From: Omphiscola glabra
Lineage: Eukaryota; Mollusca; Gastropoda; Lymnaeidae
Length of the DNA: 64,000 bases
Reading direction: 5' to 3'
Assembly (NCBI GenBank): GCA_964017045.1
Contig: OZ024795.1
Span: forward strand, 56,087,350 to 56,151,349
The first letter of the stretch is position 1; each line of letters starts with the position of its first letter. Below the pieces are notes generated by a model, which ran no database searches, was not told where the DNA came from, and worked only from the letters and a program-made list of their open reading frames with translations. Positions 9,238 to 62,149 of the stretch are shown piece by piece. The translations under genes were made by a program, and so were the position numbers.

Positions 9238-9757
9238 GATCTTATGTTACAATGAAAGCCCTGGACTTTATGTTACAATGGCACTCCTGGACTTTATGTT
9301 ACAATGACATTCCTGGACCTTATGTTACAATGACACTCCTGGACCTTATGTTACAATGACACTCCTGGACTTTATGTTACAATGACACTCCTGGACCTTA
9401 TGTTACAATGGCACTCCTGGACCTTAAGTTACAATGACACTCCTGGACTTTATGTTACAATGGCACTCCTGGAATTTATGTTACAATGGCACTCCTGGAC
9501 CATATGTTACAATGGCACTCCTGGACTTTATGTTACAATGGCATTCCTGGACCTCATGTTACAATGGCACTCCTGGAATTTATGTTACAATGGCACTCCT
9601 GGACCATATGTTACAATGGCACTCCTGGACTTTATGTTACAATGGCATTCCTGGACCTCATGTTACAATGGCACTCCTGGACTTTATGTTACAATGGCAC
9701 TCCTGGACCTCATGTTACTATGGCACTCCTGGACTTTATGTTACTATGGCACTCCTT
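9238..9757. repeat. 26-bp array, about 20 copies, overlapping the GPCR stop codon
   Basis: The unit is TTATGTTACAATGGCACTCC + TGGACC. Its right end overlaps the last codons and stop (9736-9738, minus strand) of the receptor gene: the receptor's final SAIVT-stop is encoded by one repeat unit, and the rest of the array forms the presumed 3' UTR. Plus-strand frames opened by the array are not genes. Confidence 0.9.
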
Positions 9758-10032
9758 GGTTTGAGCGAAAGGGTAAAAAGAGAAATTGTGTTCTGCCCTT
9801 CATGAGAACCACGTGGTACATACGTAGAAGGGGCGGCTCCCATTGGACGGACAGTGTTCTTTTTGACGACAAGATGGCGACAGGTGAAGAGCGCTTTAAA
9901 CCCGCTACGAAAGTTTCGGTTAAAAATGATATTGAGCAGAAAATTGTAAGCTGTGCTGAACACAGTGAGAGCCAATCTGAGCATAAAGATGGCGCTATCT
10001 GAGTCAGTCACATCACTCTTTCCTGTAGTCTT
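9736..10032 (-). CDS. GPCR exon 5 (ECL3-TM7-C-tail and stop)
   Basis: Acceptor TTTCTCTTGTCTACAG, then KTTGKSDVTDSDSAIFML, TM7 (LALTVFSTAYNFLLNIIF), helix 8 (NRNFRSGFKALFTC, with a possible palmitoylated Cys) and a basic, Ser/Thr-rich tail. The stop TAA is in the first unit of the 26-bp array. The normal NPxxY is NFLLN here. Confidence 0.88.
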   Translation of the reverse strand, partial: KTTGKSDVTDSDSAIFMLRLALTVFSTAYNFLLNIIFNRNFRSGFKALFTCRHLVVKKNTVRPMGAAPSTYVPRGSHEGQNTISLFTLSLKPRSAIVT

Positions 10033-13000
10033 CTGTAGACAAGAGAAACAAAAACTAACATACAATAAAGTTAAACCTTCATGACAGCACAGCTATTCCT
10101 AGACATAGAAAAGCGAACGCAACATCTTAAATAAGTATTTCTATGAGTATCAGTGAGGATCATTTTGAGTCATTTGTTGTTCTTGCTAAAACATGATATT
10201 TGTTGTTGTTGCTAAAGATGATATTTGTTGTTGTTGCTAAAGATGATATTTGTTGTTGTTGCTAAAGATGATATTTGTTGTTGTTGCTAAAGATATTTGT
10301 TGATGTTGCTAAAGATATTTGTTGATGTTGCTAAAGATATATATTGTTGCTAAAGATACTATTTGTTATTGTTGCTAAAGATGATATTTGTTATTGTTGT
10401 TAAAGATGATATTTGTTCTTTATCGAAATATTGAAGTAACAGAGTAAGGATTGTAAAATTAAATCTTAGCACCTAAACTGGGATGACCTTTGAATGTGCC
10501 TCTATTGTGCTAACCCAGTGGTTCTCAACCTTCCTAACGCCGCGAACCTTTCATACAGTTCCTCATGTTGTGGCGACCCCCAGCCACACAATTATTTTCG
10601 TTGCTACTTTATAACTGTAGAGTACCGTATATCTGTTTTCAGATGGTCTTAGGCGACCCCTGAGAAAGGGTCGTGCGATATCCAAAAGGGTCGCGACCCA
10701 CATGTTGAGAACCGCTATGCTAACCTGATTGCAGTCTCTCCCTTTATTACTCTTCTTTATTTGAACAGCCCTAGCGGTCATTATTGCCCTAGATATCAAA
10801 CTTATCAACAGCGGCCTGCTGTTGCTGCTAACTGATCAACTGTGGCCTGCTGTTGGTGCTAACTGATGTCAAACTTATCAAAAGAGGCCTGCTGTTGCTG
10901 CTAACTGATGTCAAACTTATCAACAGCGGCCTGCTGTTGCTGCTAACTCATGTCAAACTGTTCAACAGCGGCGTCAAACTTATCAACAGCGGCCCGCTGT
11001 TGCTGTTAACTGATGTCAAATTTATTAACAGCGGCCTGCTGTTGCTGCTAACTGATGGTTTAGTGCAAGCGTCGGCCTGCTGTTGCTGCTAGCTGATGGT
11101 TTAGTACAAGCGTGTTCCATTGTGTTTTAAAAGAGTGATCTTTCATTTACCTCTATGATGAGAAGTGTGAAATATGGCATCCAAGAAATGGCAAAGAGCA
11201 CTGCAATAAGGATTAGCATTTTGACTACATTCAGGTGACCTCTGTACAGAGCTTGAGTCACCACAGTGGCTCCCAGGTTGGCTCCAAACAAACCCCTTGA
11301 CCGGAAATACAAGAGTACACTGGAAAATAAAAGAGCATTTCATTTACAACAATGAGGGGGTCTCAAACTCGCGTCCCGAGGGACCTCATAACAATGTTCC
11401 CCTTTTTTCAATATCATTTGTGTCAGAAAATGTAATATTTGAAGATAGTAATGCTGCACAATGACGTGCTGTTAGCTTGGATCACGTGATACACACGAAT
11501 GGCCCTTGGAGCACGTGATACACATGAATGGCTTATAGACCACTTTTCAATTTATTAAAAAATAGCACAACTAAAATGTTCAAAAAAGTTCATGAAATCT
11601 AAAATATTGATTTTCCAATTTCATTCATTCAACGAGAAATAGAAACTAGTAGAAATAGAAACTAGTAGAGATAGAAACTAGTAGAGATAGAAACTAGTAG
11701 AGATAGAAACTAGTAGAGATAGAAACTAGTAGAGATAGAAACTAGTAGAGATAGAAACTAGTAGAGATAGAAACTAGTAGAGATAGAAACTAGTAGAGGT
11801 AGAAACTAGTAGAGATAGAAACTAGTAGAGATAGAAACTAGTAGAGGTAAAAAGTAGTAGAAATAGAGACTAGTAGAAGTAGTAATGAAACGTTACTTAT
11901 TCTTTCACCCCCCCCCCCCCATCTCTCTCTCTCTCTCTCTCTCTCTCGCTAACCCTTTATATGAGAATTACCTGCTATAATTAGCCAGCAGCAGAACAAG
12001 CGGCACCACATAGGCTAACAAGAGAATACCGATCCCATTGACAGTGGAGTATGTCCGTGACACACCGTGACTACCACAGCGTGTTATAGAGGTGCCATTG
12101 ACATAGGGCTCTTTAAACTCAGAATATTCATAGCTGAAATAACAAGGATACAAGAAATGGGCATGCAATAGAAACACATACATTCTCAATCACCCACACA
12201 CACATACACAACAAATGTATACCTGACACGATGGTGTAATCCAAGTAAAGTGTCAGTGACAGTGTCAGTGACAGCTACCTTTTGCAAGGGTCAAGATTTC
12301 TATTATTTGTTCCACGTTATAATCGCTCTGCTAGCTTCCATTTGAATCCAATATCAGTGTCTGCTTTTAAGTAAGACAAAACACACAGCAGTGATAGACA
12401 TTTTTTGCACTAGCAGAGATGTACTTACAGACATGTTGTACTTACAGAGATGTTGTACTTACAGAGATGTTGTACTTACAGACATGTTGTACTTACAGAG
12501 ATGTTGTACTTACATAGATGTTGTACTTACAGACATGTTGTACTTACAGACATGTTGTACTTACAGACATGTTGTACTTACAGACATGTTGTACTTACAG
12601 ACATGTTGTTCTTACAGACATGTTGTACTTACAGAGATGTTGTACTTAAAGAGATGATGCACTTATAGAAATGTTGCACTTACACAGATGATGTACTTAA
12701 ACAGATGAAGTATTAACACAGAGATGATGTACTTACAGAAATGTTGTACTTAAAGAGATGATGTACTTTCAGAGATGATGTACTTAAGAGATGATGTACT
12801 TAAAAAGATGTTGAACTTACAGAGATGTTGTACTTACATAGATGTTGTACGTACAGAGAAGTTGTACTTACAGAGTGGGTAGACTAAACAGCAAGGAGAG
12901 AAACCAGATAAGGGGAATAATTTGGACGACTTGGGCCATCGTTGTTCTTCCTTCATTCATGGCCACGATGGCCCGCTTTCTTTCAAAAGAAATGGCCACC

Positions 13001-14080
13001 ATTGAGTAAATAGATGCCATGATGCAAAGTAGTGGGCTGAAGTTGACCACACGACAAAGGAAGTCTCCTGTCAAATGTATGGACACATTGCTTTGATATC
13101 ATTAGAATTAAAACTATTAGAAATATTTTTAAAAAATGTGCTTCATGATTCGTTAGACATATTTCATACTTCGGCTGACCATGATTCACAAGCATAGCTA
13201 CTAACTAATTAATCAATTATTGCTACTAGCTTATTAATCAATTATTGCTACTAACTAATTAATCAATTATTGCTACTATCTAATTAATATTTTCACGTTA
13301 AACAGGCACCAGCATTAAACATCATAAGAAATATTGCAATGCTTAATGGCACACTTGACTAAAGACTTGCTTACCTTAATGATACATTTGACTAAAGACT
13401 TGGTTACCTTAATGACACATTTGACTAAAGACTTGTTTACCTTAATGGCACATTTGACTAATGACTTGGTTACCTTAATGACACATTTGACTAAAGACTT
13501 GGTTACCTTAATGACACATTTGACTAAAGACTTGATTACCTTAATGACACATTTGACTAATGACTTGGTTACCTTAATGACACATTTGACTAAAGACTTG
13601 GTTACCTTAATGACACATTTGACTAATGACTTGGTTACCTTAATGGCACATTTGACTAAGGACTTGCTTACCTTAATGACACATTTGACTAAAGACTTGG
13701 TTACCTTAATGACACATTTGACTAAAGACTTGGTTACCTTAATGACACATTTGACTAAGGACTTGCTTACCTTAATGACACATTTGACTAAAGACTTGGT
13801 TACCTTAATGACACATTTGACTAAAGACTTGGTTACCTTCAAAGTAATCCTCTGATGCATGTGACACGTCATGTATATTTTGTGGTATGACAATACCTTC
13901 CAAAATGATGTCGCTGACTGTCATGTTACATATCAAGAGATTTGTAAGGTTCGACATCTTCGGTGTTTTCATCATAACCATAAGGACGAGAATGTTGCTG
14001 ATAACAGACAAGACTAAAACCGTTCCAATAATGACAACGAAAACGAGTTGTCCCTGGGTAACATGTGTGCTGTGATCCAT
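9736..14080 (-). CDS. Class A (rhodopsin-like) GPCR, five coding exons, 355 aa
   Basis: Seven-transmembrane receptor of the plasma membrane, probably for a peptide or amine; ligand unknown. Exons (minus): 13837-14080, 12872-13067, 11972-12133, 11151-11319, 9736-10032; total 1068 nt. All four junctions are GT-AG with matching phases (1, 2, 2, 0). Seen in order: TM1 (VIIGTVLVLSVISNILVL), TM2 (NLLICNMTVSDIILEG), the TM3 Cys (GDFLC) ending SFERKR in place of DRY, TM4 with IPLIW, an ECL2 Cys (ITRCGS), TM5 (AYVVPLVLLL), TM6 (FAISWMPYF), and TM7 ending NFLLN where NPxxY is usual, then NRNFRSGF as helix 8. The start ATG at 14078-14080 is the first in frame after an upstream stop and has G at -3 and +4. 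Introns hold tandem arrays and a SPIN element. Class is secure, subfamily is not. Confidence 0.9.
10196..10432. repeat. 22-bp repeat in GPCR intron 4, about 10 copies
   Basis: The unit is GATATTTGTTGTTGTTGCTA + AA. Some copies are shortened by loss of GATG or part of the GTT run. Confidence 0.85.
10516..10717 (+). mobile_element. SPIN-like non-autonomous hAT element, 202 bp with 8-bp TSD
   Basis: Begins CAGTGGTTCTCAACCTTCCT and ends GTTGAGAACCGCTA, giving inverted termini. It is flanked by a perfect 8-bp duplication TGCTAACC (10508-10515 and 10718-10725). Interior blocks (ACAGTTCCTCATGTTGTGGC, TTATTTTCGTTGCTACTT, AGGCGACCCCTG, GGGTCGCGACCCACA) match what I know of SPIN MITEs. It has no transposase and must have been moved in trans. 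It sits in intron 4 of the receptor, plus orientation. Confidence 0.88.
10795..11103. repeat. 42-bp repeat in GPCR intron 4, about 7 copies
   Basis: The unit is GCTGTTGCTGCTAACTGATG + TCAAACTTATCAACAGCGGCCT, with internal deletions in several copies. On the plus strand it reads as a leucine-rich frame, which I regard as a by-product. Confidence 0.85.
11151..11319 (-). CDS. GPCR exon 4 (ICL3-TM6)
   Basis: Acceptor TTTTATTTTCCAG, then VLLYFRSRGLFGANLG, TM6 with VLFAISWMPYFTLLIIE (WMP in place of CWxP). Donor ATAGAG|GTAAATG in phase 0. This donor is not part of an array. Confidence 0.88.
11353..11395 (+). mobile_element. Possible hAT end fragment in intron 3
   Basis: GGGGGTCTCAAACTCGCGTC followed by CCGAGGGACC resembles one terminus of hAT elements of the CAGGGGTCTCAAACTCG type. 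No matching right end was located before the 16-bp array. Confidence 0.3.
11636..11885. repeat. 16-bp array in GPCR intron 3, about 15 copies
   Basis: The unit is GAGATAGAAACTAGTA, with a few GGTAG and AAATAG variants at the edges. It contains the palindrome ACTAGT in every unit. Confidence 0.93.
11909..11947. repeat. C12 and (TC)n tract in GPCR intron 3
   Basis: A run of cytosines followed by about 13 TC units, just inside intron 3 on the donor side of exon 3. Confidence 0.9.
11972..12133 (-). CDS. GPCR exon 3 (ECL2-TM5)
   Basis: Acceptor TTGTTATTTCAG, then YEYSEFKEPYVNGTSI with a possible N-glycosylation site (NGT), the ECL2 cysteine in TRCGSHG, and TM5 (GILLLAYVVPLVLLLANYS). Donor AGCAG|GTAATT. 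Phases fit both neighbours. Confidence 0.88.
12134..12409. other. Intron 2 acceptor side
   Basis: Unique intronic sequence with a CA-rich stretch (about 12190-12212) and a short GTGTCAGTGACA duplication at about 12248-12273. Confidence 0.4.
12410..12871 (-). repeat. 17-bp array of donor-like units in GPCR intron 2, about 27 copies
   Basis: On the minus strand the unit is GTAAGTACAACATCTCT. Almost every unit restores a GTAAGTAC donor preceded by CT. The first unit (12866-12871 onward) is the true donor of exon 2. Units far from the exon are more diverged (TTAAGTAC, GAAAGTAC), while the middle block is homogeneous (CTGTAAGTACAACATGT). Confidence 0.92.
12872..13067 (-). CDS. GPCR exon 2 (TM3-TM4)
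   Basis: Starts after ATTTGACAG on the minus strand, completing Gly-Asp-Phe-Leu-Cys, the conserved TM3 cysteine region. It runs through SFERKRAIV (ERK in place of DRY) and TM4 to LFSLPTL. Donor ACTCT|GTAAGTAC leaves two bases. The acceptor has a weak pyrimidine tract. Confidence 0.88.
13198..13290. repeat. 25-bp AT-rich repeat in GPCR intron 1, about 3.5 copies
   Basis: The unit is CTACTAACTAATTAATCAAT + TATTG, near the acceptor side of intron 1. Read on the minus strand it gives AATTAGT blocks. Confidence 0.8.
13341..13836 (-). repeat. 33-bp array of donor-like units in GPCR intron 1, about 15 copies
   Basis: Read on the minus strand, each unit is GTAACCAAGTCTTTAGTCAA + ATGTGTCATTAAG, so every junction re-creates AAG|GTAACC, the splice donor of exon 1. 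The first unit is the real donor at 13831-13836. A few units have small changes (AGTAAGCAAG, GTAAACAAG). The unit is a multiple of three and stays open in off-frames on both strands; these frames are not genes. In the receptor frame a TAA ends the first unit. Confidence 0.93.
13837..14080 (-). CDS. GPCR exon 1 (N-terminus, TM1-TM2)
   Basis: Encodes a short N-terminus starting MDHSTHVTQG, TM1 and TM2 with the NMTVSD signature, up to EDYFE. Donor GAAG|GTAACC leaves one base of a glycine codon, completed by exon 2. The donor is also the first unit of the 33-bp array in intron 1. A 5' UTR continues to about 14413, where TTTTTGCAG on the minus strand looks like a 3' splice site, so a further non-coding exon probably lies upstream. 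Confidence 0.88.
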
Positions 14081-21459: not shown

Positions 21460-21509
21460 AACAAAAAAAAAAAAAAAACAAAAAAAAAAAAAAAAAACAA
21501 AAAAAAAAT
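21460..21509 (+). repeat. A-rich tract
   Basis: Three A-runs broken by single C bases, about 50 bp. This could be the tail of a retroposed sequence, but no element body is recognisable upstream. Confidence 0.8.
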
Positions 21510-28294: not shown

Positions 28295-28562
28295 TTTATT
28301 TAATTGGTACTCGCTAGTTTACTTAGAGAATATTTCATTGGTACTCACTAGTTTATATAGGGAATATTTTATTGGTACTCACTAGTTTATATAGAGAATA
28401 TTTTATTGGTACTTACTAGTTTATATAGGGAATATTTTATTGGTACTCACTAGTTTAATATTTCATTGGTACTCACTAGTTTAATATTTCATTGGTACTC
28501 ACTAGTTTAATATTTCATTGGTACTCACTAGTTTAATATTTCATTGGTACTCACTAGTTTAT
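28295..28562. repeat. 24-36-bp repeat, about 9 copies
   Basis: The units are ATTGGTACTCACTAGTTTA plus either ATATTTC (short form) or TATAGGGAATATTTT (long form). The long form is on the left and the short form on the right. Confidence 0.88.
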
Positions 28563-35285: not shown

Positions 35286-35296
35286 CACTCAATAAC

Positions 35297-39645: not shown

Positions 39646-39837
39646 GGAATTGCAGATTTTAAGATTCTCTAATCACATCACATGTCCAGGAGCTGAAAGA
39701 TATTGAACATTGAGATTTGTTGTCATAACAATGTACAGATTCTGCTTCAGCAAACTGAATAAAAACTTAGACAGTAAAACATTTAGATTTAATTTAAATT
39801 AACAAGTTAAAGGTAAGAAACTTTCAATCAATCATTT

Positions 39838-41192: not shown

Positions 41193-41289
41193 AAATTAGT
41201 TTAATAATAATAAAATAAGTAAATTGTGTTCTCATTAAGTTTCTGCCTTAAATATGCTTATAATAGTAAAGGAATAAAAATGATCTATA

Positions 41290-41379
41290 TCATATTTTAA
41301 GACTGTCTATAAAAGCCCTTACAAGCTGTGGTAGGATCTTCTCCAAGTGTTCTATTGTCACTCTTTGGTCTCCCTCATT
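41290..41379 (-). CDS. CENP-X exon 5 (LEKILPQL) with uncertain end
   Basis: Acceptor TTTTGTTTCAG, then NEGDQRVTIEHLEKILPQL. At CTT|GTAAGG (41322/41323) a donor is possible; without splicing the frame continues VRAFIDSLKI to TGA at 41290-41292. No short LLDF-encoding exon was recognised down to 39 kb. Confidence 0.8.
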   Translation of the reverse strand, partial: NEGDQRVTIEHLEKILPQLVRAFIDSLKI

Positions 41380-44300
41380 CTGAAACAAAATGTACCAGAA
41401 CAATGGCAGTAACCATTTTTTAAAACTTTATTTAGTATGGTTATTACAAAAATATCTCATGGATCAAAATGTCATTAAAAACAGGGATTTGGAGCAGAGC
41501 TTGGAGTTCGGGGTCTTTTTGCTGAAGCGGAGCTGGTAAAATTTATTTGAGTTTCAAGCTCCAAAGTTTTAAAATAAATTAATAGAAAAAGTTTTAAATA
41601 TAATTTGTACGGTACCGGTACTTCAAATTTTTTAAAACTTTATTAAAGGTTTGCCCCATTCATCTGCTTCTACCAGCTATGTTTCCTCGCTCTTTCTACA
41701 GCTATGTTTCCTGGCTCTATCTACAGCTATGTTTCCTGGCTCTATCTACAGCTATGTTTCCTGGCTCTATCTACAGCTATGTTTCCTGGCTCTATCTACA
41801 GCTATGTTTCCTGGCTCTATCTACAGCTATGTTTCCTGGCTCTATCTACAGCTATGTTTCCTGGCTCTATCTACAGCTATGTTTCCTGGCTCTATCTACA
41901 GCTATGTTTCCTGGCTCTATCTACAGCTATGTTTCCTGGCTCTACCTACAGCTATGTTTCCTGGCTCTATCTACAGCTATGTTTCCTGGCTCTATCTACA
42001 GCTATGTTTCCTGGCTCTATCTACAGCTATGTTTCCTGGCTCTATCTACAGCTATGTTTCCTGGCTCTATCTACAGCTATGTTTCCTGGCTCTATCTACA
42101 GCTATGTTTCCTGGCTCTATCTACAGCTATGTTTCCTGGCTCTATCTACAGCTATGTTGCCCAACTATGCTACCTGTTATATTGCTGGTACACACACTTC
42201 TGCATAGTTAATAAGATGTGTAAATGGCAATAGTAAACAAACTGTTTAAAACACTCAACCATCCCTCCAGATTTTTAAAATTTGCTTGATCTCATCAGAA
42301 AATAAAAACCTGCACCAAATCCCTGGTTAAAAATAACAACAGATGTGCCGCAGCCTTACAACAGCTGTACCGCAGCCTTACAACAGCTGTACCGCAGCCT
42401 TACAACAGATGTGCCGCAGCCTTACAACAGATGTGCCGCAGCCTTACAACAGATGTGCCGCAGCCTTACAACAGCTGTATCGCAGCCTTACAACAGATGT
42501 GCCGCAGCGTTAGCACACATATTAGTATGAGAAATTCTTAAATCTGTACATATTTCCTTAATTTATAAAGAGATATTGAAGGATCATCTTCCAGATTTTG
42601 ATTACATTTGTTACATCTTTTTAAAAATTGAAATAGTAATTTGTTCTAAGAGAAACCTTTCAAACAACAAATTGTGACTTCTGTAAACATAAGTGATCCA
42701 CCTTAGCCTGGTGACCCACCTTAGCCCGGTGACCCACCTTAGCCTTGTGACCCACCTTAGCCTGGTCTGCAGCTCTTGATAGGGCTTCTGTAAATAAATA
42801 CTTAGCTATTATATGTATTACTAATACTATTTATAAATATATATATATATATATATGCATCCAATATGATGAGAGTGAAAGACGAGAATTTTGAATTTAT
42901 ACATTCAAGAATCTGTGTGTTTATATACAACATTTACAAAGATCTACCACCATTATGAGTACTTTCATAGCATTTCTCTAGTAATGCCATAGTTATGAGC
43001 ACTTTCATAGCATTTCTCTAGTAATGCCATAGTTATGAGTACTTTCATAGCATTTCTCTAGTAATGCCATAGTTATGAGTACTTTCATAGCATTTCTCTA
43101 GTAATGCCATAGTTATGAGTACTTTCATAGCATTTCTCTAGTAATGCCATAGTTATGAGTACTTTCATAGCATTTCTCTAGTAATGCCATAGTTATGAGT
43201 ACTTTCATAGCATTTCTCTAGTAATGCCATAGTTATGTAACGATCACCCAATACTTTATATATACCCAGTAGTTGAAAGTTTTCATTATTTTAAAAAGTC
43301 TGAATTGAATCATTTAAAGAGCGCTGAATATATTCTAAATCTATTATTACTTAAATAATTTTTTTTTAATCAAAGAAAGAGGAACACTGTCCCTCTGATC
43401 TCCTGGTTTCAACAGAAATTAAATGGCAGCAAATAAAAAGCTATTTTACCTTTAGTAAATATTCTGAGAAGCTCTGTGAGTAGGACAAGAGCACTTCCTT
43501 TCACTAAGTAATTGAATAAGAGAATCAATTATTGTAGAGTTAGGTTTAGATTTGTTTCATTTGTAAGAAAGAGAGGAAAAATTGGACATAGCATATCATT
43601 GGTGCTCTTCATTATTTCCTAGTTAGTAGGTCAATTTATCTGCAGGCACTTCATAGTTAGTAGGTCAATTTATCTGTAGGCACTTCATAGTTAGTAGGTC
43701 AATTTATCTGTAGGCACTTCATAGTTAGTAGGTCAATTTATCTGTAGGCACTTCATAGTTAGTAGGTCAATTTATCTGTAGGCACTTCATAGTTAGTAGG
43801 TCAATTTATCTGCAGGCACTTCATAGTTAGTAGGTCAATTTATCTGCAGGCACTTAATAGTTAGAAGGTCAATTTATCTGCAGGCACTTCATAGTTAGTA
43901 GGTCAATTTATCTGCAGGCACTTCATAGTTAGTAGGTCAATTTATCTGTAGGCACTTCATAGTTAGTAGGTCAATTTATCTGCAGGCACTTCATAGTTAG
44001 TAGGTCAATTTATCTGTAGGCACTTCATAGTTAGTAGGTCAATTTATATATAGGCACTTTATAGTTAGTAGGTCAATTTATCTGCAGGCACTTCATCAGG
44101 GTAAGCCGACTGGAGTAAAAAAACTAAAGATGATGATCGTGTTGTTTTTGGAAAAGGGGGGGGGGGGGGGGGGGGGGGGACAAAAATAAGTCATACAAAA
44201 ATATATGACTGTTGCTTTTGAATCAATTCTAAAGTCAGTGTGTATTTGAAGGCATATAAACTGATGTAATATATTAATGTGTGATAGATAGTTTAATATA

Positions 44301-47300
44301 TATTGATGTAACATTATATTAATATATATTGGTGTAATATCATATTAATATAATAAAAATATATATTAATGTAATATTATATAATATATGTAATATTATA
44401 TTAAAATATATTAATTGAAAAGCTTACAGATTGCATTATCCCAGTCTAGTCATTGAATACACAGTACATATCCTGATTTTACCGTCTTGGTTCGACAATG
44501 TTCCATGACATGTATATGTTAAGAATAAAAGAGAAGACCCTGGCAAGTTCACCAGGGTTCTCTGTTTTTCAATAAAATTATTTTAAAAAAGACCAAAAAA
44601 GTTTTAAGAGATTGAAAAATGTACAGAAAGTTGATACCACAATTTTGAGCTCTATTGATAATTGATTATCTGGATCCTACTTGATGCAAGCTTTAAGATT
44701 TAGTCCTTTCAATTTACTAAATTATACTTCATTTAATTTCATCCTTTACTTAAGTATATTTTATTTAAATTCATACCTGTCACCTTTTCATCTTTAAAAT
44801 GTTGACTAATAACTTCTGAGACTGTTTTCTGAAAAAAAAATGTTTGAATAAAATAATCATTAGGTAGGAACATGATTACACCACAAAAATTGATGATAAA
44901 AGATTTCATAACACTGCTATAAGATGTCATCAAATTGTCATAAGAAGACATACAGTAACATTCTCATAAGAAGTCATAACATTGGAACGTAGTAAGAAGA
45001 TGAGATAAGGTAGTCAATTAACTTATTATAGGATTGACAATGTCATTTCCTAATTCCTAAATGAATTCTCCAATATTTGTTCAAGTCGTTTCATCATTAA
45101 ACAATATTTATACAGAGGATTTCTTCAATTAGTTGGCATGTATACACTGTAAGCACTGGCTTTTCAATTAAGCTTTATATGACATCCTTCCGTCTTTGTG
45201 AGACGATGGATTAGATTATAGACACTTGATCAAATAGCTTATGGAGCAGATCCTCGAATGCACTTCTCGCTGGAAAACCTTTAATTCTGGTTAACTCCTC
45301 TGGCCTTCCGTAATGCTATCTTTGTTGTGAGACGATGGATTAGATTATAGACACTTAATCAAATAGCTTATGATGCAGATCCTCGAATGTACTTATTGGA
45401 ATTGGCCCTTTTCTCAATCCCAAAAATTGTTTTCAATCATACAAGAGAATGGTTGTATGAAAAGAATTTGTGGGAAAACAAAACATCCATAAGGCAAATA
45501 TTAATTTTTTAATTTTTGAGTTTGAAAGCACACTGACAATTATAATAATTTGGATATTTTTTAAAATAAAACTCTGTCATTAAGATATCTACAGTACTGT
45601 GGTTTAAATAACACATTTAATGCATGGAGTTTGGCTAATGAATACAACAAAGTTATAGGAACATACAAATATATTTGTTAACATTTACACACTGCATTGA
45701 AAATTGTAAATAAATGTGCACGATTGCACATAAAAAGATAAATGGAATTCAAACATTAGAAACGTATACGTTGAGCTTCAGGAACAGCTTTGATCTTCAG
45801 GAACAGCTTTGATCTTCAGGAACAGCTTTGATATTCAGGAACAGCTTTGCCAGTTAAAAGGCAGATTTAGGAGGAAAGAATGATAGATGAGCTTAAGACA
45901 CTAAAAGAAATTCATCAGACTCTCTATTTCAGTGGTTCCCAACCTGTACTTCACACTTATCAGGGGTCACTGTGGCTTACGTAAACTTCTTATCACCATT
46001 AACTTGTCAGACATAGGGCAGGCCTAAGGGACACCCCCCATAGTAAGCGATTTTAAACCGGCTCCCTGAGTCAAAAAGGTCAGCAACCGGTGCTCTAGCT
46101 GATTTTTAAATCCAAGTCTTAAGCCTAAAATTTTAAATTTTTTTAAGATTTAACCACCCAGACCCACCTAAGTTTATTGCAGAGCAGGGCCTTAAAGTTT
46201 AAAGTTGAAGCATGATATTTGTTATTCCATAAAATAGCTGAGATGACGTAACATACATAATAGACCAATCAGGGTAAAGAAATTATGATCTTATCCCTTC
46301 AAACTTTGCTTTACAAATTCTTCATCAATGTAAGATTATACATTGCAGGTGAGGGCGGTACAACATTCAGCTCTTGGCCATTGTTAAAAATGAAATGGCA
46401 AGGAATAAGGTCAACATTAAGATACTACATTTCAGCTAAGTGTTATTTTTATTTAATTCTGTTTTTACTGTTGTTTGCTCGCTGATGAAGGCTTCTTGCT
46501 GGCACGTTTGTCATTTTGTTGCGTTCCGTTTTTTAGGTTTTCCCACACTTTGTTTCACTCATTTCCTATCTTGTATTTATGATTGGCTATGAAACAGGAT
46601 TGAAGATCTCTGTTACATTTTCCATTTTTATGTCACCCTATGTGGATTAGGGGTTTACTTGAAGAAGTTGACTAATGAGCCCACGTATTATGTTTGTACT
46701 TTATATTACAAGGACATCGAGGGTTCATTAAATGTTTTAGTATAAATTATAGAATAGCCTGTCATTGTAGTCGTTTTGCGTTCAATACAACACATTTGTT
46801 ATCTGCTCTTTAAACTATTGCTGGCGCTATAGCATGGAAAAAAACAGTTCATTTAATTATGCTTTAGAAAATCTGAGGTTTAGGCTTTAACTTTAATGCT
46901 TATTTGAAGATGAGTTCAAATACATAGTTGAAGTAAAAACACGTATTTTTCCAATAGATAAGGTAATGATTAAGTGAGGAAGGAAGCCTTGCGTTCTTCT
47001 TATTGTAGATTATGCTTAGGCATAGGGCACTTCTACCCAAGATGTAACATAGGCAAATTAATTTTGTTTTTTTCCACCAAGGAAATGCCTTCAACAGGTT
47101 TGTTTATCACTGTTTAGAAATGTGTCAACAATTATTTTGGGGCACTTATTTCAACCAAATTTATTGTAAGGCAATGAATGTTAAAACATATGGTTACAAT
47201 AATGGACTAATCTTATCTAATGCTGAAGGGGCATGATCTAAATCAGTAATTGATGGAAGTTAAAGAGTGTAAGTGAAAAACTGTCAAAACCTTTGTTTTA

Positions 47301-49278
47301 CAGTTCACAGATTTACAGCTGATTCAACAAACAAACAAATTGAAATGAAGCAGCCTAACTGAAGTAACCATCATCTAGAATGCTTTAAGTTTTTTATATA
47401 ATTGTTTTGTTAACTTAATTTAAAATTTTATTGAAATTCCAATTTAAGCAAAGTAAGAGGGAAAAATAATGTTAAATTATGATTACAAGAATTGTAAAAT
47501 AAAAAAGAAGAGTTTTCTATCCCAAAAGTAAACTTGATTCAAGTTGATTTTTTTAATATATATATATATAAAAACTATTTTAAATTTATTACTTTGCAAT
47601 AAACTAACAGCAGCTTGTAAAATGAAAGTAAGAGAATGTGGACATTTAGGGTAACAAAATGAGGCTGTGCAGTCCTTATGATAGTCTATGGTAGTCATAG
47701 ATGATAGAGAGTTAAAAAAGGTGAACGGACTTGCATTTAAATTATAGTTGAGATTTAACTATTACTGTCTACTGTTGAAAATGGTTTTGGGTTATTATAT
47801 TTTTATTGTATAGATTATGCTTAGGCATAGGATGCTTCTTGCATTAGCCTACCCAAGATGTAACATAGGCAAATTAATTTATATATATTTGTATTATGTA
47901 TATGTAAACAAAGTAAGCCATATATACTGCACTTGTGCTACTACTATTATGTAGGCACTTTGTTGATGAAAATTTCAAAATATTTTTTAAAATATAAAAA
48001 TACTACAGATGTATAGAGCCCATAGAATGGTTTACAAAAACACCAAGATCAACATTCTAGCTCAAGTGGTTCAAAGGTTATGAGCTTTTTAGTAAGGACC
48101 TCAAAACCACTTTTTCACTATGGGATTTTCCTCCACATTTCGTGACCCTCATATTGCTATTGTTTATATGCCTATAACTTTGTTATAAAATGAGACAAAA
48201 ATATAATATTTACAATGAACACAGTTAAATATGAGTTCTAAATAAAGCCACAAAATACAATTTTAGTTTTTGTTAATATTCCGCAAAAAATATTTTCTAA
48301 TCTTGATAATTTTCCACATTAAAAATGAATAAAATATGATGACTCGTCACTTATTTGTTATTATTTTATTAATTAATTTTTTTTTAAATATACATTTTTA
48401 AAATTTCTCTTATTTAATAATAATAATATCATATTAAATTATCATCAAATTATCATCAAATTTTTTCTAAAAGAAAAAGTCAAGCGAACAAAAAACATCT
48501 CTTCTTTAAGATGAGGCCGGAAGTAGAATTTATTAACAAAACTAACTTCAGCAAATAAAATCCGAAACAACGCTACCCTCGATAAATTAAAATTAAAAAG
48601 TGGAGGTCGCCATTTTGACAACAAAATCACAATACCCGGTTTTCTGTAATTCCCGGATCTAACTGAAGTAACTATATTATGTCTCTTTGAGTTGAAGTTT
48701 AAGTCTAATGGCTTACATGTAATTTATTGTAATGCCTCGAGGGAAACTAATATTTACTCAACTCAAGCCTGAATTGTTTTTTGAAATGATTGAAATGGAT
48801 TGGAAAAACATGAAAATTGGGCATCTGCAGGATGTCCTTCTTGATATTCACTATGACTCACATGAGTGTGACATTCTAACTAAAACTACTAGAGTGACTA
48901 AGAGTTTAAGAGTAAGACACTACTAGACTAAATTTACTAATTACTCAAAATTACTGAAAGAGTGAAACGCACTCCACTGAGAGAGAAAAAGGAAATTAGG
49001 CGACTAAGCTTAAAAATAAGTACGTAAATGATATTAATAATTAACTTTACTGTTTACTTAATTTTAAATTATTAAGTCATTAATTAATTAATGTCCTAGT
49101 CTTTAACTTTAGTACTCTTTTAGCCGCCTAACTTCGTCTCGTCTTAGTCTTTCTTTATTTGAAGCGTATTTTTTTGTTTTCAATTTTATTTTTAGTGTCA
49201 TTAAAGCATTCAACAGAACGATTAATAAACACTTTAACACATTATTACCGTTTTAAATGTTGATCCAGCAAAAGACAT
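41290..49278 (-). CDS. CENP-X / MHF2 histone-fold protein, five exons
   Basis: A small histone-fold protein. In the known family it pairs with CENP-S (MHF1) in the CENP-T-W-S-X kinetochore complex and in the FANCM-MHF DNA-repair complex. Exons (minus): 49249-49278, 44777-44828, 43450-43503, 42756-42787, and 41323-41379 or 41290-41379. Phases agree throughout (0, 1, 1, 0). Joined, it reads MSFAGSTFKT, then VSEVISQHFKDEK, GSALVLLTELLRIF, EALSRAADQAK and RVTIEHLEKILPQL. These align without gaps to the vertebrate protein's HFKDDK, ALxLMxELL and LEKxLPQL pattern. Length is about 75 residues to LPQL, against about 81 for human. The C-terminus is uncertain: CTT|GTAAGG could splice to an unseen LLDF-like exon, or read on to TGA at 41290 (85 aa). 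Confidence 0.87.
41676..42155. repeat. 25-bp array in CENP-X intron, 19 near-perfect copies
   Basis: The unit is GCTATGTTTCCTGGCTCTAT + CTACA. Nearly all copies are identical (one ACCTACA). It is open in all three plus frames and gives 167-186-codon shadows of no coding value. Confidence 0.95.
42338..42505. repeat. 22-bp repeat in CENP-X intron, 7-8 copies
   Basis: The unit is CAGATGTGCCGCAGCCTTAC + AA, with CAGCTGTACCG variants. Confidence 0.9.
42694..42764 (-). repeat. 18-bp repeat of the CENP-X exon 4 splice donor, 4 copies
   Basis: On the minus strand the unit is CAGGCTAAGGTGGGTCAC, including nine exon bases (CAGGCTAAG) and the donor GTGGGT. Later units start AAG, CGG or CAG; the last donor is GTGGAT. 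The unit is in frame with the exon (Val-Gly-His-Lys-Ala-Lys), so choice of donor would add 6, 12 or 18 residues without a stop. Confidence 0.9.
42756..42787 (-). CDS. CENP-X exon 4, 32-nt microexon
   Basis: Acceptor TTTATTTACAG, then (E)ALSRAADQAK. Donor GCTAAG|GTGGGTCAC in phase 0. The donor and the last nine exon bases are the first unit of an 18-bp tandem repeat. Confidence 0.82.
42955..43237. repeat. 40-bp repeat in CENP-X intron, 7 copies
   Basis: The unit is GAGTACTTTCATAGCATTTC + TCTAGTAATGCCATAGTTAT. Copies are nearly identical. Confidence 0.95.
43450..43503 (-). CDS. CENP-X exon 3 (second helix)
   Basis: Acceptor CAATTACTTAG, then (T)VKGSALVLLTELLRIFTK. Donor ACTAAAG|GTAAAATAG. The 54-nt exon keeps phase with both neighbours. 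Confidence 0.85.
43612..44097. repeat. 34-bp array in CENP-X intron, 14 copies
   Basis: The unit is CACTTCATAGTTAGTAGGTC + AATTTATCTGTAGG. TGTAGG and TGCAGG types are interspersed. Confidence 0.95.
44157..44179. repeat. G23 homopolymer
   Basis: The longest homopolymer in the window, followed by an AT-rich stretch with TATTAATATA repeats (44285-44415). Confidence 0.95.
44530..44563. other. Stem-loop next to AATAAA
   Basis: Arms AGAGAAgACCCTGG and CCAGGGTTCTCT enclose an 8-nt loop; TTTTTC-AATAAA follows at 44565-44576. This may be a degraded retroposon or a structured RNA end. It is in CENP-X intron 2. Confidence 0.4.
44777..44828 (-). CDS. CENP-X exon 2 (first histone-fold helix)
   Basis: Acceptor T9-CAG, then KTVSEVISQHFKDEKVT. 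Donor GACAG|GTATGA leaves one base. HFKDEK is the strongest family signature in this exon. Confidence 0.85.
45771..45846. repeat. 20-bp repeat, 4 copies
   Basis: The unit is CTTCAGGAACAGCTTTGATC. Confidence 0.88.
45930..46092 (+). mobile_element. hAT-like MITE, 163 bp
   Basis: Starts CAGTGGTTCCCAACCTGTAC and ends GGTCAGCAACCGGTG, inverted termini of the hAT type. Flanks CTCTATTT and CTCTAGCT (45922-45929, 46093-46100) share six of eight bases, fitting an aged 8-bp duplication. Interior GGGGTCACTGTGG, non-coding. Confidence 0.6.
47006..47070. repeat. Dispersed repeat, copy 1 (copy 2 at about 47812-47882)
   Basis: Both contain GATTATGCTTAGGCATAGG and ACCCAAGATGTAACATAGGC + AAATTAATT. Copy 2 has an extra TCTTGCATTAGCCT. 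Confidence 0.7.
49249..49278 (-). CDS. CENP-X exon 1 (start, 10 codons)
   Basis: ATG at 49276-49278 gives MSFAGSTFKT. Donor AAAACG|GTAATA in phase 0. The frame is open upstream for about 66 codons, but family length favours this ATG. GCGGAAGT at about 49385 and nearby sequence may be promoter. Confidence 0.78.
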
Positions 49279-50224: not shown

Positions 50225-50408
50225 CTAATCGGATGTCATTTGTGGTAGTTTATTTTAGTTAAACTGAAGAAGTAAGTATGCAAACATATATAGCCCATTC
50301 AATTATATTTCATTTGAATTTGATACCAAATGTTGTCTTACAAACCCAATAATAAAATTTAAAACATTTTAAAAAAAATAAACCCAACCTCTCACACCTT
50401 TCCGGGTC
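50225..50408 (+). mobile_element. MITE family A, copy 3 (ends eroded)
   Basis: Shares CGGATGTCATTTGTGGTAGT, AGTTAAACTGAAGAAGTAAG and CCCAACCTCTCAC with the copies at 5348 and 52848, and ends at TTTCCGGGTC. The outer inverted ends are partly missing. Confidence 0.7.
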
Positions 50409-50599
50409 AGAATTAACACTTCGAAAAAAAAATTGACTAATTTAATGTATTGAATTATTAACTTTATAATACTGTACAATATTAACTATAATTTTAGAAG
50501 TTTTTTAATTTATTAATTATGTCAAGTTATGCGTGGTTTTAAAAAATAAAACCAATCTAGTTATGCAGAAAAGAGTTTTAGCAATTAATTTTTTTCCCT

Positions 50600-50915
50600 T
50601 TTCTGGTTCTGGTAGGGTACGTTGCTGCATCCATGTACTGGCATAAGTGCAACGGTTGGGGAAGCGATGCTGCCATCCTAACGGCTCCTAGCAGATGCCA
50701 GGGCAGCCTCGAAGCTTTGGATAGATGCCGAGTTTACGGCGGTATTGTCCAGGTTGTTCCAAGCGATTATTGTGCGTGGGAAGAATGATTGTTTATGTTT
50801 TACTGTGTAACTCCGAGGCACAGTGAAGCATTTGCTATTGTTCCGAGTGTGATTGCTCATGGGGTTGTCAGAGGTTTAGTCAGTGTTTGGCTCTGAATAA
50901 TCGACCTGGCTTCTG
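50600..50915 (-). mobile_element. LINE family 2, 3'-end fragment C
   Basis: Minus-strand 3' end repeating the end of fragment B: HTRNNSKCFTVPRSYTVKH, FFPRTIIAWNNLDNTAVN and ALASARSR-stop (50678-50860), then a 3' UTR with GTACATGGATGCAGCAACGT. It joins fragment B at CAGAA (50911-50915). Confidence 0.85.
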
Positions 50916-52097
50916 TTCTGGTTCTGGTTCGGTACGTTGCTGCATCCATATACTGGCATATGTGCAACGGTTGGGGAAGCGATGTTGCCAATCTAACGGC
51001 CCCTAGCAGATGCCAGGGCGGCCTTGAAGCTTTCGATCGTTGTCGAGTTCACGGCGGTATTGTCCAGGTTGTTCCAAGCAATTATGGTGCGTGGAAAGAA
51101 TGATTGTTTATGTTGCACTGTGTTACTCCGAGGCACAGTGAAGCATTTGTTATTGTTTCGGGTGTAATTTCTCATGGGGTTGTCAGATGTTAAGTCAGTG
51201 TTAAGTGACTGTTTGGCTCTAATTAATCGGCCTGGCTTCTGTGGGGTGAGATAATTGTTTGCTGGGATGGCCGGAATTAGCCCCATGGCCATTTTATATA
51301 AGAATGTTAGGCGGATCTTTTCTCGTCTGTCCTTGAGAGTGGGGATGTCAAATCTGTTTAAAAGGCCAGTGACGTAGCCAGGCGTGGTGGTTTTATAGTC
51401 ACGTGCTATGAAGCGCATTGCGTTACGTTGGATTCGCTCCAATTTGTCCACGTCTTGCTTGAGGTATGGGTCCCAGATGATTGCACCATATTCTAGTATC
51501 GGACGAACGAGTGCAAGATAGGCATTTCGTTTGCAGGATGTTGCGCAGTGGCGCAGATTTCTTCTAATAAAACCTAGTGTGGAGTTGGCTTTTTTTGAAA
51601 TTTTGTTTATATGGGGTGACCATTTTAGGTTATTTGAGAAGAGAATTCCAAGGTATGGATTGTTTGTTACTTGTTGAAGGATTGTCCTATTTAGGGTGTA
51701 CATATAGCTTGGTGTTTTTTTTTTTGAGATGCTCATTATGTAGCATTTGGTTTCATTAAATTTCATGCCCCATTTGTCTGCCCAATTCATAAGGCACTCC
51801 AAATCTGCTTGAAGTTGGTTGTGGTAATCGTAGTCGATTATCTCTCTGTAGACAAGACAGTCATCTGCAAACAGCCTCACTTGAGATTTTACAGTATCAG
51901 GGAGGTCGTTTATGTGACAGAGAAAGAGAAGGGGGCCCAGTACTGTGCCTTGAGGAACTCCTGAGTCTACGGTGGCTTTGCCTGATCGGACGCCATCTAC
52001 CACTACTTGCATGGTCCGTTTTGTTAGAAATGTTGAGAGCCAGGAGTGAAGGTTGCCGGTAATGCCGTAGTGGTGGAGTTTGTGTAGAAGAAGGCTG
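50911..52097 (-). mobile_element. LINE family 2, RT fragment B
   Basis: A 5'-truncated non-LTR element. The open frame (stop at 50993) carries SGVPQGTVLGPLLFLCHIND, FADDCLVYREI, YLGILFSNNLKW, RRNLRHCATSCKR, WDPYLKQDVDKLERIQR and the end FKAALASARGR. The frame continues upstream of the first ATG (52012) to about 52097 (LLLHKLHHYGITGN). The 3' end has a GAACCAGAACCAGAA tail. It is a different family from the LINE at 23.4 kb. Confidence 0.9.
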
Positions 52098-52361
52098 TAC
52101 GGTGAGATAATTGTTTGCTTGTATGGCCGGCATTAGCCCCATGACCACTTTATATAAGAATGTTAGGCGGATCTTTTCTCGTCTGTATTTGAGGGAGGGG
52201 ATGTCAAATCTGTTTAAGAGGCCAGTGTGACGTAACCAGGAGGGGTGGTTTTGTAGTCACGTGCTATGAAGCGCACTGCGTAACGTTGGATTCACTCCAT
52301 CTGATCTTGTCCACGTCTTGCTTTAGGTATGGGTCCCAGATGATTGCACCATATTCTAGTA
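52098..52361 (-). mobile_element. LINE family 2, fragment A
   Basis: A further minus-strand piece matching positions 51244-51500 of fragment B (GTGAGATAATTGTTTGC and AATGTTAGGCGGATCTTTTC on the plus strand). It carries frame breaks (GTGTGACGTAACC). It directly abuts fragment B. Confidence 0.8.
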
Positions 52362-58742: not shown

Positions 58743-59569
58743 GATCTAATCGCTCTACACTAGCAGCTGACAAAAGCAATCTTTTCTTGTTTCTTACAGG
58801 TCTATGATCTAACGCCACTGACGTCACCACGATAAGATTAGACCGGAAACATTGATCATGATTTAAATGAATATTGACATTTAGAACGTGGCAGCCATAT
58901 TGGATTTTTGTCATCCACTGGTGACGCTGGGTAAACCTGTCAGGTACAGGCCTGTCATTAAAAGCCATTACTGCTGCACTGCTGTACTGCTTCACGCTAG
59001 TGTGATATTGATGAGATTCGCAAACAACAGACGCTCACGATGGAAAATGGCGGTAAGGGAAAGAGACACCCGCCATTAGATTTATCAGAACTTTGGAGAT
59101 TTCGTGAATTTAAATAAGTCTTAGTGTTGTTCATCAAATTAAATGTCCTTAAAAACAAATAAACATTTAGAAAAAATATTGTGCAAATCTGTTAATAGAA
59201 TTTTATTTAAAAATCTCAGCAGGGGATTTCAAATACAGTCAATACCTGTTTCAGATAAATAATTTGTGTTACCTTGAAAGTCGATCACTTGAAAAAGGTG
59301 TAAAAATCTGAATTAAAATTATGGTAAATATTTTTAAAGATGGCTTTCAGGGTCAGGGTCAAGGAATTATGAGTTAATGTTTAATTGTTAATACTTGAAG
59401 TTATTATTAAATAGAAGGAAAGATCTCAACATTGCCAAGGTCAGATCTAACCATTGTCAAGGTCAGGTCTAACAATTGTTAAGGTCAAATAGAGCAAAAG
59501 AACCCTAGTTAAGTATGTGAGTGATAAATTATGTCTCAAGGACGAGTAAAGCTGATTGGTTGAAAGTTG
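58743..59569 (+). other. Spacer with a possible 5' exon for the claudin-like gene
   Basis: ACGATGGAAAATGGCG|GTAAGG at 59036-59053 has a strong start context and a fair donor. It could be a non-coding first exon with a short upstream frame (25 codons if unspliced, 59039-59116). GCAGCCATATTGG (about 58891) is YY1-like on the other strand. Evidence is weak. Confidence 0.3.
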
Positions 59570-59870
59570 TGTGAGTGCATTCAAATGAGTGTATATATAC
59601 ATTGTGGTCTAGTGTGATGATTAAGATGTTGTGTGAGTGCATTCAAATGAGTGTATATATATACATTGTGGTCTAGTGTGATCATTAAGATGTTGTGTGA
59701 GTGCATTCAAATGAGTGTATATATACATTGTGGTCTAGTGTGATCATTAAGATGTTGTGTGAGTGCATTCAAATGAGTGTATATATACATTGTGGTCTAG
59801 TGTGATCATTAAGATGTTGTGTAAGTGCATTCAAATGAGTGTATAATATATACATTGAGGTCTAGTGTGA
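59570..59870. repeat. About 60-bp repeat, 5 copies
   Basis: The unit is GTGTGAGTGCATTCAAATGA + GTGTATATATACATTGTGGTCTAGTGTGATCATTAAGATGTT. Confidence 0.9.
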
Positions 59871-59955
59871 GACGTCCTGTCTAGTGAAGTTAGTTCCCTG
59901 AGACGTCCTCTCTAGTGAAGTTAGTTCCCTGAGACGTCCTCTAAAGTGAAGTTAG
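59868..59955. repeat. 31-bp repeat, 3 copies
   Basis: The unit is GAGACGTCCTCTCTAGTGAA + GTTAGTTCCCT. Confidence 0.9.
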
Positions 59956-60207
59956 TGTTCCTACGTGGCATTGTTCCTCTGTTGTCCACCCGTCAACGGC
60001 ACTATTATTGCACCTGTCTCCACAACCTTTATATCACAACACCTAACATGTGATGTCACACCACAACTATAAGATCAATGATTAACAATACAAATTTAAA
60101 TCACTATTCCTTGACCTTGACCTTGGGTGAGCTTTCAGTCTCCCGTTGCTGACTACAAAAGTGCACAATAATTTTAAGGCTGTGAATAAACTTTAAAAAT
60201 TGTCAAT

Positions 60208-60465: not shown

Positions 60466-60588
60466 CAAACGGCTGTCTCTTACAAACTGTTGTTTCTATC
60501 TAAATCTAGTCTCACTCTGCCTCCTTGCTTATAACAACGCAAGTCTGGTTTTCAAAAAAATTAAACTCTAAAATTATTTTTTTTCCAG

Positions 60589-60825
60589 ATTGTTAATCAT
60601 GCCTGACCTCCACCGTGTCCACCTATTTGGTACGAGCAGGTTATCTAGGGTAGAAATAACCTAATCTACTCTAACGATGGCGACACCACTATTGATTTTG
60701 TTCGCTTGCTCTGTTGTCATTGGCTTGTTGACCACTCTGATTGTGGTCGTTACAGTGTCCGTGGACAACTGGGCAGACGTCACTTACGATAGTAACAAAC
60801 TTCTTGTCATAAATGATTCCTGCAG
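60589..60825 (+). CDS. Claudin-like exon 1 with 5' UTR
   Basis: A good acceptor (ATTATTTTTTTTCCAG, ending 60588) starts the exon, so a non-coding exon lies upstream. A short upstream frame (ATG at 60599, 21 codons) precedes the main ATG at 60677. The exon ends GATTCCTGCAG|GTGAGTGTGG, and its last bases resemble the unit of the array that follows. Confidence 0.75.
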
Positions 60826-62149
60826 GTGAGTGTGGTCAATGTCCTGCAGGTATGTCTGATCAATTTTACTGCAGATATGTCTGGTCAATGTGTTGCAGGT
60901 ATGTATGGTCAATATTAATGCAGGTATGTCTGGTCAATGCTCTACAGGTATGTGTGGTCAATGACCTGCAGGTATGTGTCATCAATGACCTGCAGGTATG
61001 GGTGGTCAATGACCTGCGGGTATGGTGGTCAATGACCTGCAGGTATGTGTGGTCAATGTCATGCAGGTATGTGTGGTCAATGTTTCTGCAGGTATTTCTG
61101 GTCAGTGTCGTGCAGGTATGTGTGGTCAATGTTTCTGCAGGTATTTCTGGTCAGTGTCGTGCAGGTATGTGTGGTCAATGTTTCTGCAGGTATTTCTGGT
61201 CAGTGTCGTGCAGGTATGTGTGGTCAATGTTGCTGCAGGTATTTCTGGTCAGTGTCGTGCAGGTATGTGTGGTCAATGTTTCTGCAGGTATTTCTGGTCA
61301 GTGTCGTGCAGGTATGTGTGGTCAATGTTTCTGCAGGTATTTCTGGTCAGTGTCGTGCAGGTATGTGTGGTCAATGTTTCTGCAGGTATTTCTGGTCAGT
61401 GTCGTGCAGGTATGTGTGGTCAATGTTTCTGCAGGTATTTCTGGTCAGTGTCGTGCAGGTATGTGTGGTCAATTTTCCAGCACGTATGTGTGATCAATGT
61501 TCCTGTAAGTATGTCTGGTCAATGACCTACATGTATGTGTGGTCAATGTTCCTGCATGTATGTGTGGTCAATGACCTACAGGTATGTGTGGTCAATGTTC
61601 CTGCAGGTATGTGTGGTCAATGTTCATGCAGGTATGTGTGGTCAATGTTCCTGCAGGTATGTGTGGTCAATGAACTGAAGGTATGTGTGGTCAATGTTCT
61701 TGCCGGTATGTGTGGTCAATGTTACTGCAGGTATGTCTGATAATGACCTGCAGGTATGGCTGGTAATGACCTGCAGGTATGTCTGGTCAATGACCTACAT
61801 GTATGTGTGGTCAATGTTCTTGCAGGTATGTCTGGTCAATGACCTGCAGGTATGTCTGGTCAATGTTACAGAGGGAGAGAAAGAAAACTGAATAGTTCTG
61901 ATAATTTTTTATTAAAAATTAAATATTTGTTTAAAAAATCACTAGTGGTAAAATTAATTTTATTTAGGCAAAACCCAACTATTGTTTATTTCAGATTACA
62001 GACGGCTGTAAACTGCCACCTAGTGCAGATATCAGAAGCGCCACCTATGTACCGATTTGACACATACACTAATAACTACAGTAAGAACACAAGTAGCTTT
62101 ATTTATTCAACGGAAAGTGGTTTGTGGAGTACTTGTGATTCTCTTACAG
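60677..62149 (+). CDS. PMP22/claudin-superfamily membrane protein, first two coding exons (gene continues right)
   Basis: Four-pass membrane proteins of this superfamily include claudins, EMP/PMP22 and calcium-channel gamma/TARP subunits. Exons: 60677-60825 and 61995-62149, GT-AG, phases 2 then 1. Exon 1 gives MATPLLILFACSVVIGLLTT and a hydrophobic TM1 (LIVVVTVSVDNW) with the conserved first Trp of extracellular loop 1. Exon 2 ends with GLWSTC, matching the superfamily GLWxxC signature. TM2-TM4 are not in the window. Which subfamily is unclear; the spacing of W to GLW (about 80 residues) is longer than in classical claudins and closer to gamma/TARP-like or invertebrate members. Confidence 0.82.
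60826..61868 (+). repeat. 24-25-bp array of splice-donor-like units in claudin-like intron 1, about 42 copies
   Basis: The unit is CAGGTATGTGTGGTCAATGT + TCCTG; CAG|GTATGT is a near-consensus 5' splice site. The array starts at the exon's own donor (CAG|GTGAGTGTGGTCAATG), and AATGATTCCTGCAG at the exon end matches AATGTTCCTGCAG in the units. From about 61055 to 61460 it is a 49-bp dimer (GTATGTGTGG / GTATTTCTGG), about eight times. Frames up to 231 codons are by-products. Confidence 0.93.
61995..62149 (+). CDS. Claudin-like exon 2 (extracellular loop 1)
   Basis: Acceptor TTGTTTATTTCAG, then (R)LQTAVNCHLVQISEAPP, potential N-glycosylation (NYS, NTS) and SGLWSTCDSLT. Donor CTTACAG|GTGAGTA in phase 1. 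The cysteine after GLW and one in AVNC may form the loop disulfide. Confidence 0.8.

Follow-up and report, generated by a model that had tools for sequence, protein, structure and literature searches.

Tandem arrays opening at predicted 5' splice sites in three genes of the snail Omphiscola glabra

Why should minisatellites begin at the very point where an exon ends? The question is raised by a stretch of 64,000 nucleotides of Omphiscola glabra (contig OZ024795.1, positions 56,087,350 to 56,151,349), referred to below as the window, in which an initial annotation had placed ten coding-exon donors and described four of them as the first unit of a tandem array. Those ten donors stand, but the total is 11, because exon 1 of the CENP-X gene had gone unseen. 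Our set thus consists of 11 donors and 10 complete introns from a GPCR gene, the CENP-X gene and two exons of a claudin gene. Tandem Repeats Finder (TRF) reported 142 rows in the window, which, with overlapping rows merged and four rows of period below 10 dropped (11922-11947, 21463-21508, 44335-44401 and 62258-62357, none within 2 nt of a donor), correspond to 88 arrays and 49.7% of the bases.

The search for genes covered ten ORFs and Pfam scans of selected segments, and donors of genes that escaped it may be missing from the set. Scans of stop-masked frames found no family in 1942-5200 and 34390-36590 (six frames each), in 58743-60200 and 45850-50600 (three plus-strand frames each) or in one minus-strand frame of 41100-49050. 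Two ORFs encode reverse transcriptases (Pfam RVT_1; 25105-26634, plus strand, 3.1e-35, and 50993-52132, minus strand, 1.1e-15) and are probably retrotransposon remnants. The array at 5903-8338 comprises about 101 copies of a 24-bp unit, 97% alike, and leaves four frames stop-free over more than 800 codons each. Two adjoining arrays at 28297-28561 carry GTGAGT in their minus-strand units and have no recognised gene beside them; they are a possible further donor array.

The GPCR gene comprises five exons (a slash marks the exon-intron border here and below):

13837..14080 (14080-13837), minus strand: exon 1, start codon to donor 1, ending TTTGAAG/GTAACC
12872..13067 (13067-12872), minus strand: exon 2, ending CACTCT/GTAAGT
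11972..12133 (12133-11972), minus strand: exon 3, aligned with relatives
11151..11319 (11319-11151), minus strand: exon 4, with a 2-copy array 37 nt from its donor
9736..10032 (10032-9736), minus strand: exon 5, aligned with relatives

The spliced protein of 355 residues matches Pfam 7tm_1 (1.8e-33), and its best relative (59%) comes from Aplysia, under the name neuropeptide FF receptor 2-like. All four exon joins are aligned with proteins of Aplysia, Candidula and two other gastropods, with 99% of the length covered. The array of period at least 10 closest to the exon 3 donor lies at 94 nt, the TC microsatellite 11922-11947 being closer. At the other end of the gene, the stop codon (9738-9736) falls within the edge of the array 9199-9756; the last codons and the stop (9736-9738) are supplied by this 26-bp array, so that a minisatellite writes the end of the protein.

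The CENP-X gene comprises six exons and encodes 79 residues with the C-terminus LLDM:

49249..49278 (49278-49249), minus strand: exon 1 (MSFAGSTFKT), one of two pattern matches, fitting the start of relatives
44777..44828 (44828-44777), minus strand: exon 2, by alignment
43450..43503 (43503-43450), minus strand: exon 3, by alignment
42756..42787 (42787-42756), minus strand: exon 4, by alignment, ending CAGGCTAAG/GTGGGT
41323..41379 (41379-41323), minus strand: exon 5, by alignment, donor CTT/GTAAGG
39678..39692 (39692-39678), minus strand: exon 6, LLDM and stop, the sole minus-strand pattern match in the window

The best relative is a Bulinus protein at 77%, a figure equalled in Elysia chlorotica. 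Exons 2-5 are supported by alignment to relatives, and the placement of exon 1 is less certain than that of the other exons. The donor CTT/GTAAGG, which had been called uncertain, gains support because the downstream exon encodes LLDM and a stop, and an LLLDM ending is present in seven of the nine relatives found (it is absent from P0012 and P0019).

The claudin gene has two exons in the window, both tested on relatives; against a Lymnaea stagnalis claudin they show 88% identity over 101 residues, and the relatives of the three proteins together point to a heterobranch gastropod near Lymnaea:

60677..60825, plus strand: exon 1, coding part, by alignment, ending TTCCTGCAG/GTGAGT
61995..62149, plus strand: exon 2, by alignment, with no array of period at least 10 within 529 nt of its donor

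An acceptor-like site (60587-60588) precedes the claudin start codon, and the closest array, counted by hand, lies 127 nt upstream of it. The second claudin donor (62146-62165) reads ACAGGTGAGTACAGGTATTT, possibly an early-stage ten-base duplication of the junction.

At four of the 11 donors (GPCR 1, GPCR 2, CENP-X 4 and claudin 1) the GT predicted to serve in splicing belongs to the first unit of an array. The four arrays proposed initially as opening at donors are thus all present, each with its 17-33 bp units in register with that GT and filling part of the following intron. A weak repeat near a fifth donor completes the list:

13342..13839, minus strand: array at GPCR donor 1, 33-bp unit, 15.1 copies, reaching 3 nt into the exon (TRF)
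12420..12875, minus strand: array at GPCR donor 2, 17-bp unit, 26.8 copies, 4 nt into the exon (TRF)
42693..42766, minus strand: array at CENP-X donor 4, 18-bp unit, 4.1 copies, 11 nt into the exon (TRF)
60818..61867, plus strand: array at claudin donor 1, 24/25-bp units, 8 nt into the exon (TRF)
44713..44774, minus strand: weak repeat at CENP-X donor 2, 32 bp, 1.9 copies, beginning at +3

Directly after GPCR exon 1 stand fifteen 33-bp units, every one beginning GTAA. The unit at GPCR donor 2 is GTAAGTACAACATCTCT or a near variant, that at CENP-X donor 4 is GTGGGTCACCAGGCTAAG, and the claudin array, in which we counted 43 donor copies, is built of units such as GTATGTGTGGTCAATGTTCCTGCAG. In three of these arrays, adjoining units meet at AG/GT.

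In a window half of which is array, such coincidences might arise by chance, the more so as the placement test described here was devised post hoc, after the pattern had been noticed in this one window with its 88 arrays in 64 kb. For each of the 10 complete introns the arrays were re-placed randomly within their own intron, and a donor with an array no more than 2 nt away counted as a match. With arrays of at least 2.5 copies, four of the 10 introns have an array at the donor as compared to 0.12 expected (P 2.8e-6), or to 0.35 expected if the last 112 nt of the intron are barred (P 5.8e-5). With all arrays there are five of 10 as compared to 0.17 to 0.42 (P 2.3e-7 to 6.8e-6), and with the strictest set four of 10 as compared to 0.09 to 0.28 (P 7.7e-7 to 1.3e-5). 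Over all array sets 0.09-0.42 donors are expected, with P between 2.3e-7 and 5.8e-5. Runs over eight introns, with CENP-X introns 1 and 5 left out, agree with the 10-intron test. The claudin intron adds little by itself, because its array fills all but 127 nt; with it removed from the eight-intron set, three of seven introns still match (P 4.6e-5 to 1.8e-4). A test independent of TRF, covering all donors but CENP-X donor 1 and all acceptors but the final one of CENP-X, gave a similar count: the 18-mer at the junction recurs downstream with 15-17 matches at four of 10 donors, a level reached at 1.3% of 2053 non-array positions and at none of the nine acceptors, the best of which has 13 matches. 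The earlier judgement that a chance link between donors and array edges was unlikely is borne out by P values no worse than 5.8e-5 over 10 introns, and we regard coincidence as a most improbable explanation.

Acceptors behave differently from donors. The nearest array upstream of the acceptor lies 77 to 289 nt away in all 10 introns and at least 112 nt away in nine of them (all arrays considered), in agreement with the first impression that no visible acceptor is the first unit of an array: none of the 10 is closer than 77 nt. The gaps are mostly 112-165 nt in the GPCR, CENP-X and claudin introns, and the acceptors of the four introns that open with an array look ordinary and stand 115-289 nt from the arrays. 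For gaps of at least 110 nt, random placement expects 4.9 of the 10 introns (P 0.0037). As P varies from 0.0037 to 0.2 with threshold and array set, an array-free stretch upstream of acceptors is likely but not firm.

Two of the four units betray their origin. When the CENP-X 4 unit is aligned back from the junction, it repeats the final 11 exonic nucleotides exactly, while the claudin 1 unit has 13 of the final 14 exonic nucleotides in common, with one gap. When compared with pools of 95 coding 20-mers that end in the same two letters, each of these scores was reached by one of 95, presumably the exon itself, since it stayed in the pool. The units thus carry exon sequence, which argues that these two arrays came from duplication across the junction. 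The repeated CENP-X residues QAK are common to eight of nine relatives and the claudin residues NDSC are common to L. stagnalis; such conservation suggests that the exon came first and was the source of the units. For GPCR 1 and GPCR 2 the exon-derived part would amount to 3 and 4 nt, a length that 57% and 38% of the pool 20-mers attain as well and that hence is not above chance.

The four units have no word of more than 6 nt in common, and no exact 14-mer of theirs occurs outside its own locus in the 64 kb window. The earlier description of the unit sequences as unrelated therefore holds, and the four arrays appear to have arisen separately, each at its own locus, as far as a single window can show. 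Introners are families of mobile introns with similar sequence at many loci; on the same evidence, confined to the window, we rejected a shared mobile sequence of this kind as the origin of the arrays.

What would happen if splicing used a later unit? With the first donor the spliced GPCR, CENP-X and claudin proteins match their relatives. With the second, an early stop is predicted at the claudin donor and at both GPCR donors that bear arrays, and an in-frame VGHKAK insertion in CENP-X. Use of a later donor would thus end translation early in three of the four cases, which gives selection a reason to keep the first. The CENP-X donor-4 array (42693-42766) is itself in frame, with six residues per unit (VGHKAK, VGHRAK) between QAK and NEGD. 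Against the use of the first donor stands the observation that it is not always the best-scoring one of its own array. According to a donor weight matrix not fitted to snails, the used GTGAGT of claudin is outscored by none of its 42 later copies, and the used donor of CENP-X 4 by none of three, two of which tie with it; however, five of 15 later copies score higher than the used donor at GPCR 1, as does one of the four later copies scored at GPCR 2.

Duplications of this kind have been described in amphioxus. According to the available portions of two reports (PMC3087553, PMC3902484), mirages resemble minisatellites and consist of exon-intron boundaries duplicated in tandem, as in the Adh3, globin and troponin C genes, with similar ones in PGBD5; they apparently leave splicing undisturbed. 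In all four snail arrays the repeat likewise covers the splice junction, with an exon overlap of 3, 4, 11 and 8 nt. We consider it fairly probable that the four are mirages of the donor edge, kept by an unequal tolerance at donors and acceptors, although the lack of an exon-derived part above chance in GPCR 1 and 2 speaks against this reading. The order of events that we infer would begin, in at least four introns, with a short tandem duplication (17-33 bp) that took in or abutted the exon-intron junction and that unequal exchange or slippage later lengthened into a minisatellite. A copy behind the donor would fall into the intron and leave the exon and the first donor intact, and it would survive because it does no harm while splicing keeps to the first donor. 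A copy across an acceptor would add AGs, and disrupt the branch-site or pyrimidine sequence just before the exon or set the branch site apart from it, and would be lost. Selection would then be the cause of the donor-acceptor asymmetry, and the special point would be a donor edge of the intron that tolerates arrays right up to the exon. The array edge on the GPCR stop codon, a single case, fits such tolerance, because an exon end without a donor behaves alike. Of the ideas put forward initially, the tolerance of donor-bearing repeats fits best, the link to arrays being one-sided, at donors and not at acceptors.

The alternatives differ in what they make special. If donors were a mutational hot spot for tandem duplication, owing to transcription-linked structures, U1 binding or R-loops, the high rate in the window (four of 10 complete introns as compared to 0.12-0.35 expected, arrays of at least 2.5 copies) would be accounted for, and the RNA folds predicted for CENP-X 4 and claudin 1 are indeed the strongest among the 11 junctions (-15.6 each, the next being -11.9). 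However, the folds of GPCR 1 and 2 are ordinary, an array edge also lies on the GPCR stop codon, a place without a donor, and arrays at large do not favour donor-like sequence. The consensus units of 87 arrays, each compared with 300 shuffles by the same matrix, gave a mean p of 0.51 for donor-likeness, in a test that takes the better of both strands, at a cost in power. Only two of the 87 reached p<=0.05, and these were the claudin and CENP-X arrays themselves. Real and reversed units had similar donor scores (34 vs 32 at 4 or more, 14 vs 18 at 6 or more, 3 vs 2 at 8 or more). With no such excess, donors do not account for the abundance of arrays in the window, and the suggestion that donors are in general a preferred start for arrays finds no support here. 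R-loop seeding fares no better. Neither base skew nor predicted folding sets the four donors apart as a group: on the sense strand the unit at GPCR donor 2 holds more C than G (4 C, 2 G) and the unit at GPCR donor 1 holds 6 G and 5 C, so that the array-bearing donors show no common G-skew, and claudin 2, the donor with the strongest G-skew, lacks any array of period at least 10 within 529 nt, its skew stemming largely from a GA microsatellite 108 nt away. We rejected R-loop seeding on these grounds and consider a hot spot of any kind unlikely. Still less probable, in our opinion, is that the arrays came first, an intronic array having been joined to the exon by a deletion and one of its units having taken over as the donor. 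This would suit the two GPCR arrays, whose units show no demonstrable exon-derived sequence, but it fits poorly with CENP-X 4 and claudin 1, the units of which contain conserved coding sequence, and it needs separate deletions that each ended within a few bases of a donor and in the right register.

Finally, the introns themselves could have been born from duplicated AG/GT copies, as in intron gain by tandem duplication, a model published for other genes (PMC3087553, PMC2891723, in the portions available); the AG/GT borders in three of the four arrays could serve as both splice sites. Several observations make this a very remote prospect. A Plakobranchus protein model loses clear similarity at the position of GPCR intron 2, past which its BLAST alignment continues for 8-9 residues with 1 identity, and the model of another relative begins at intron 1 and stops near the position of intron 4, while a third, partial relative ends about five residues past exon 3 and is uninformative on intron age. 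Between them, the first two relatives thus break at introns 1, 2 and 4, which indirectly makes the GPCR introns look older than their arrays, and for the GPCR introns we rejected intron gain on this account; the ordinary acceptors of all four array introns, 115-289 nt from the arrays, also count against it. The earlier suggestion of a route to intron growth or gain therefore loses its second half for the GPCR introns, while intron growth through donor-edge duplication is plausible.

Returning to donor-edge mirages kept by unequal tolerance, we read the snail arrays as the same phenomenon as in amphioxus, now in a snail. As far as the available parts of the amphioxus reports allow a comparison, boundary-spanning tandem units, many with AG/GT copies, in genes taken to splice normally are common to both, and the snail units (17-33 bp) fall within the 10-72 bp range of the Adh3 mirage. 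The differences, within the same parts, are the mollusc host, the restriction to donors (none of 10 acceptors), whereas amphioxus mirages occur at both 5' and 3' boundaries, units much shorter than those of the globin mirages (about 150-160 bp), longer arrays (4 to 43 copies as compared to 3-6 in globin BflGb6) and the two of four snail arrays that show no exon-derived part. Duplicated exon-intron junctions as such are already known from amphioxus, and the donor-only pattern and the high local rate appear to be the points of interest. As for intron gain, the Rogers model is said to derive new introns from tandem duplication of AG/GT proto-splice sites, and human arrays were reportedly described in this connection by Zhuo in 2007. 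The duplicated AG/GT borders of the snail arrays resemble such systems, but the GPCR introns look older than their arrays and keep their own acceptors, and no new intron is indicated. Cases of intron gain by tandem duplication in Drosophila are described in the accessible part of another report (PMC2891723). Among pulmonates, the genome of Deroceras laeve is rich in tandem repeats, TRF adding 28.39% of the genome in the available portion of its description (PMC12506671). On that partial evidence arrays form a large part of the DNA in both species, a likeness in array abundance only, while the four arrays described here begin exactly at a used donor. Our searches of a literature consisting mostly of papers outside subscription found, as judged from titles and the opening of abstracts, no report of donor-edge minisatellites outside amphioxus, or in a mollusc, gastropod or lymnaeid; the relevant papers were the two on amphioxus.

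A bolder proposal, which we put forward tentatively and hold to be possible though rather doubtful, is that donor-edge duplication is a main route of intron growth in this snail lineage, that a large share of donors genome-wide open private minisatellites while arrays mostly keep at least 110 nt from acceptors, and that only the first of 4 to 43 near-copies is used. If this were true, introns with arrays would supply many natural cases in which up to dozens of near-copies stand behind a functional donor; they would serve to test spliceosome choice between similar sites and to gauge the selection of a donor by exon definition. The reports of duplicated junctions found so far proceed gene by gene, in amphioxus; four cases in a single 64 kb stretch of a mollusc suggest that such duplication may be widespread in genomes rich in arrays, where it would give introns a concrete way to lengthen.
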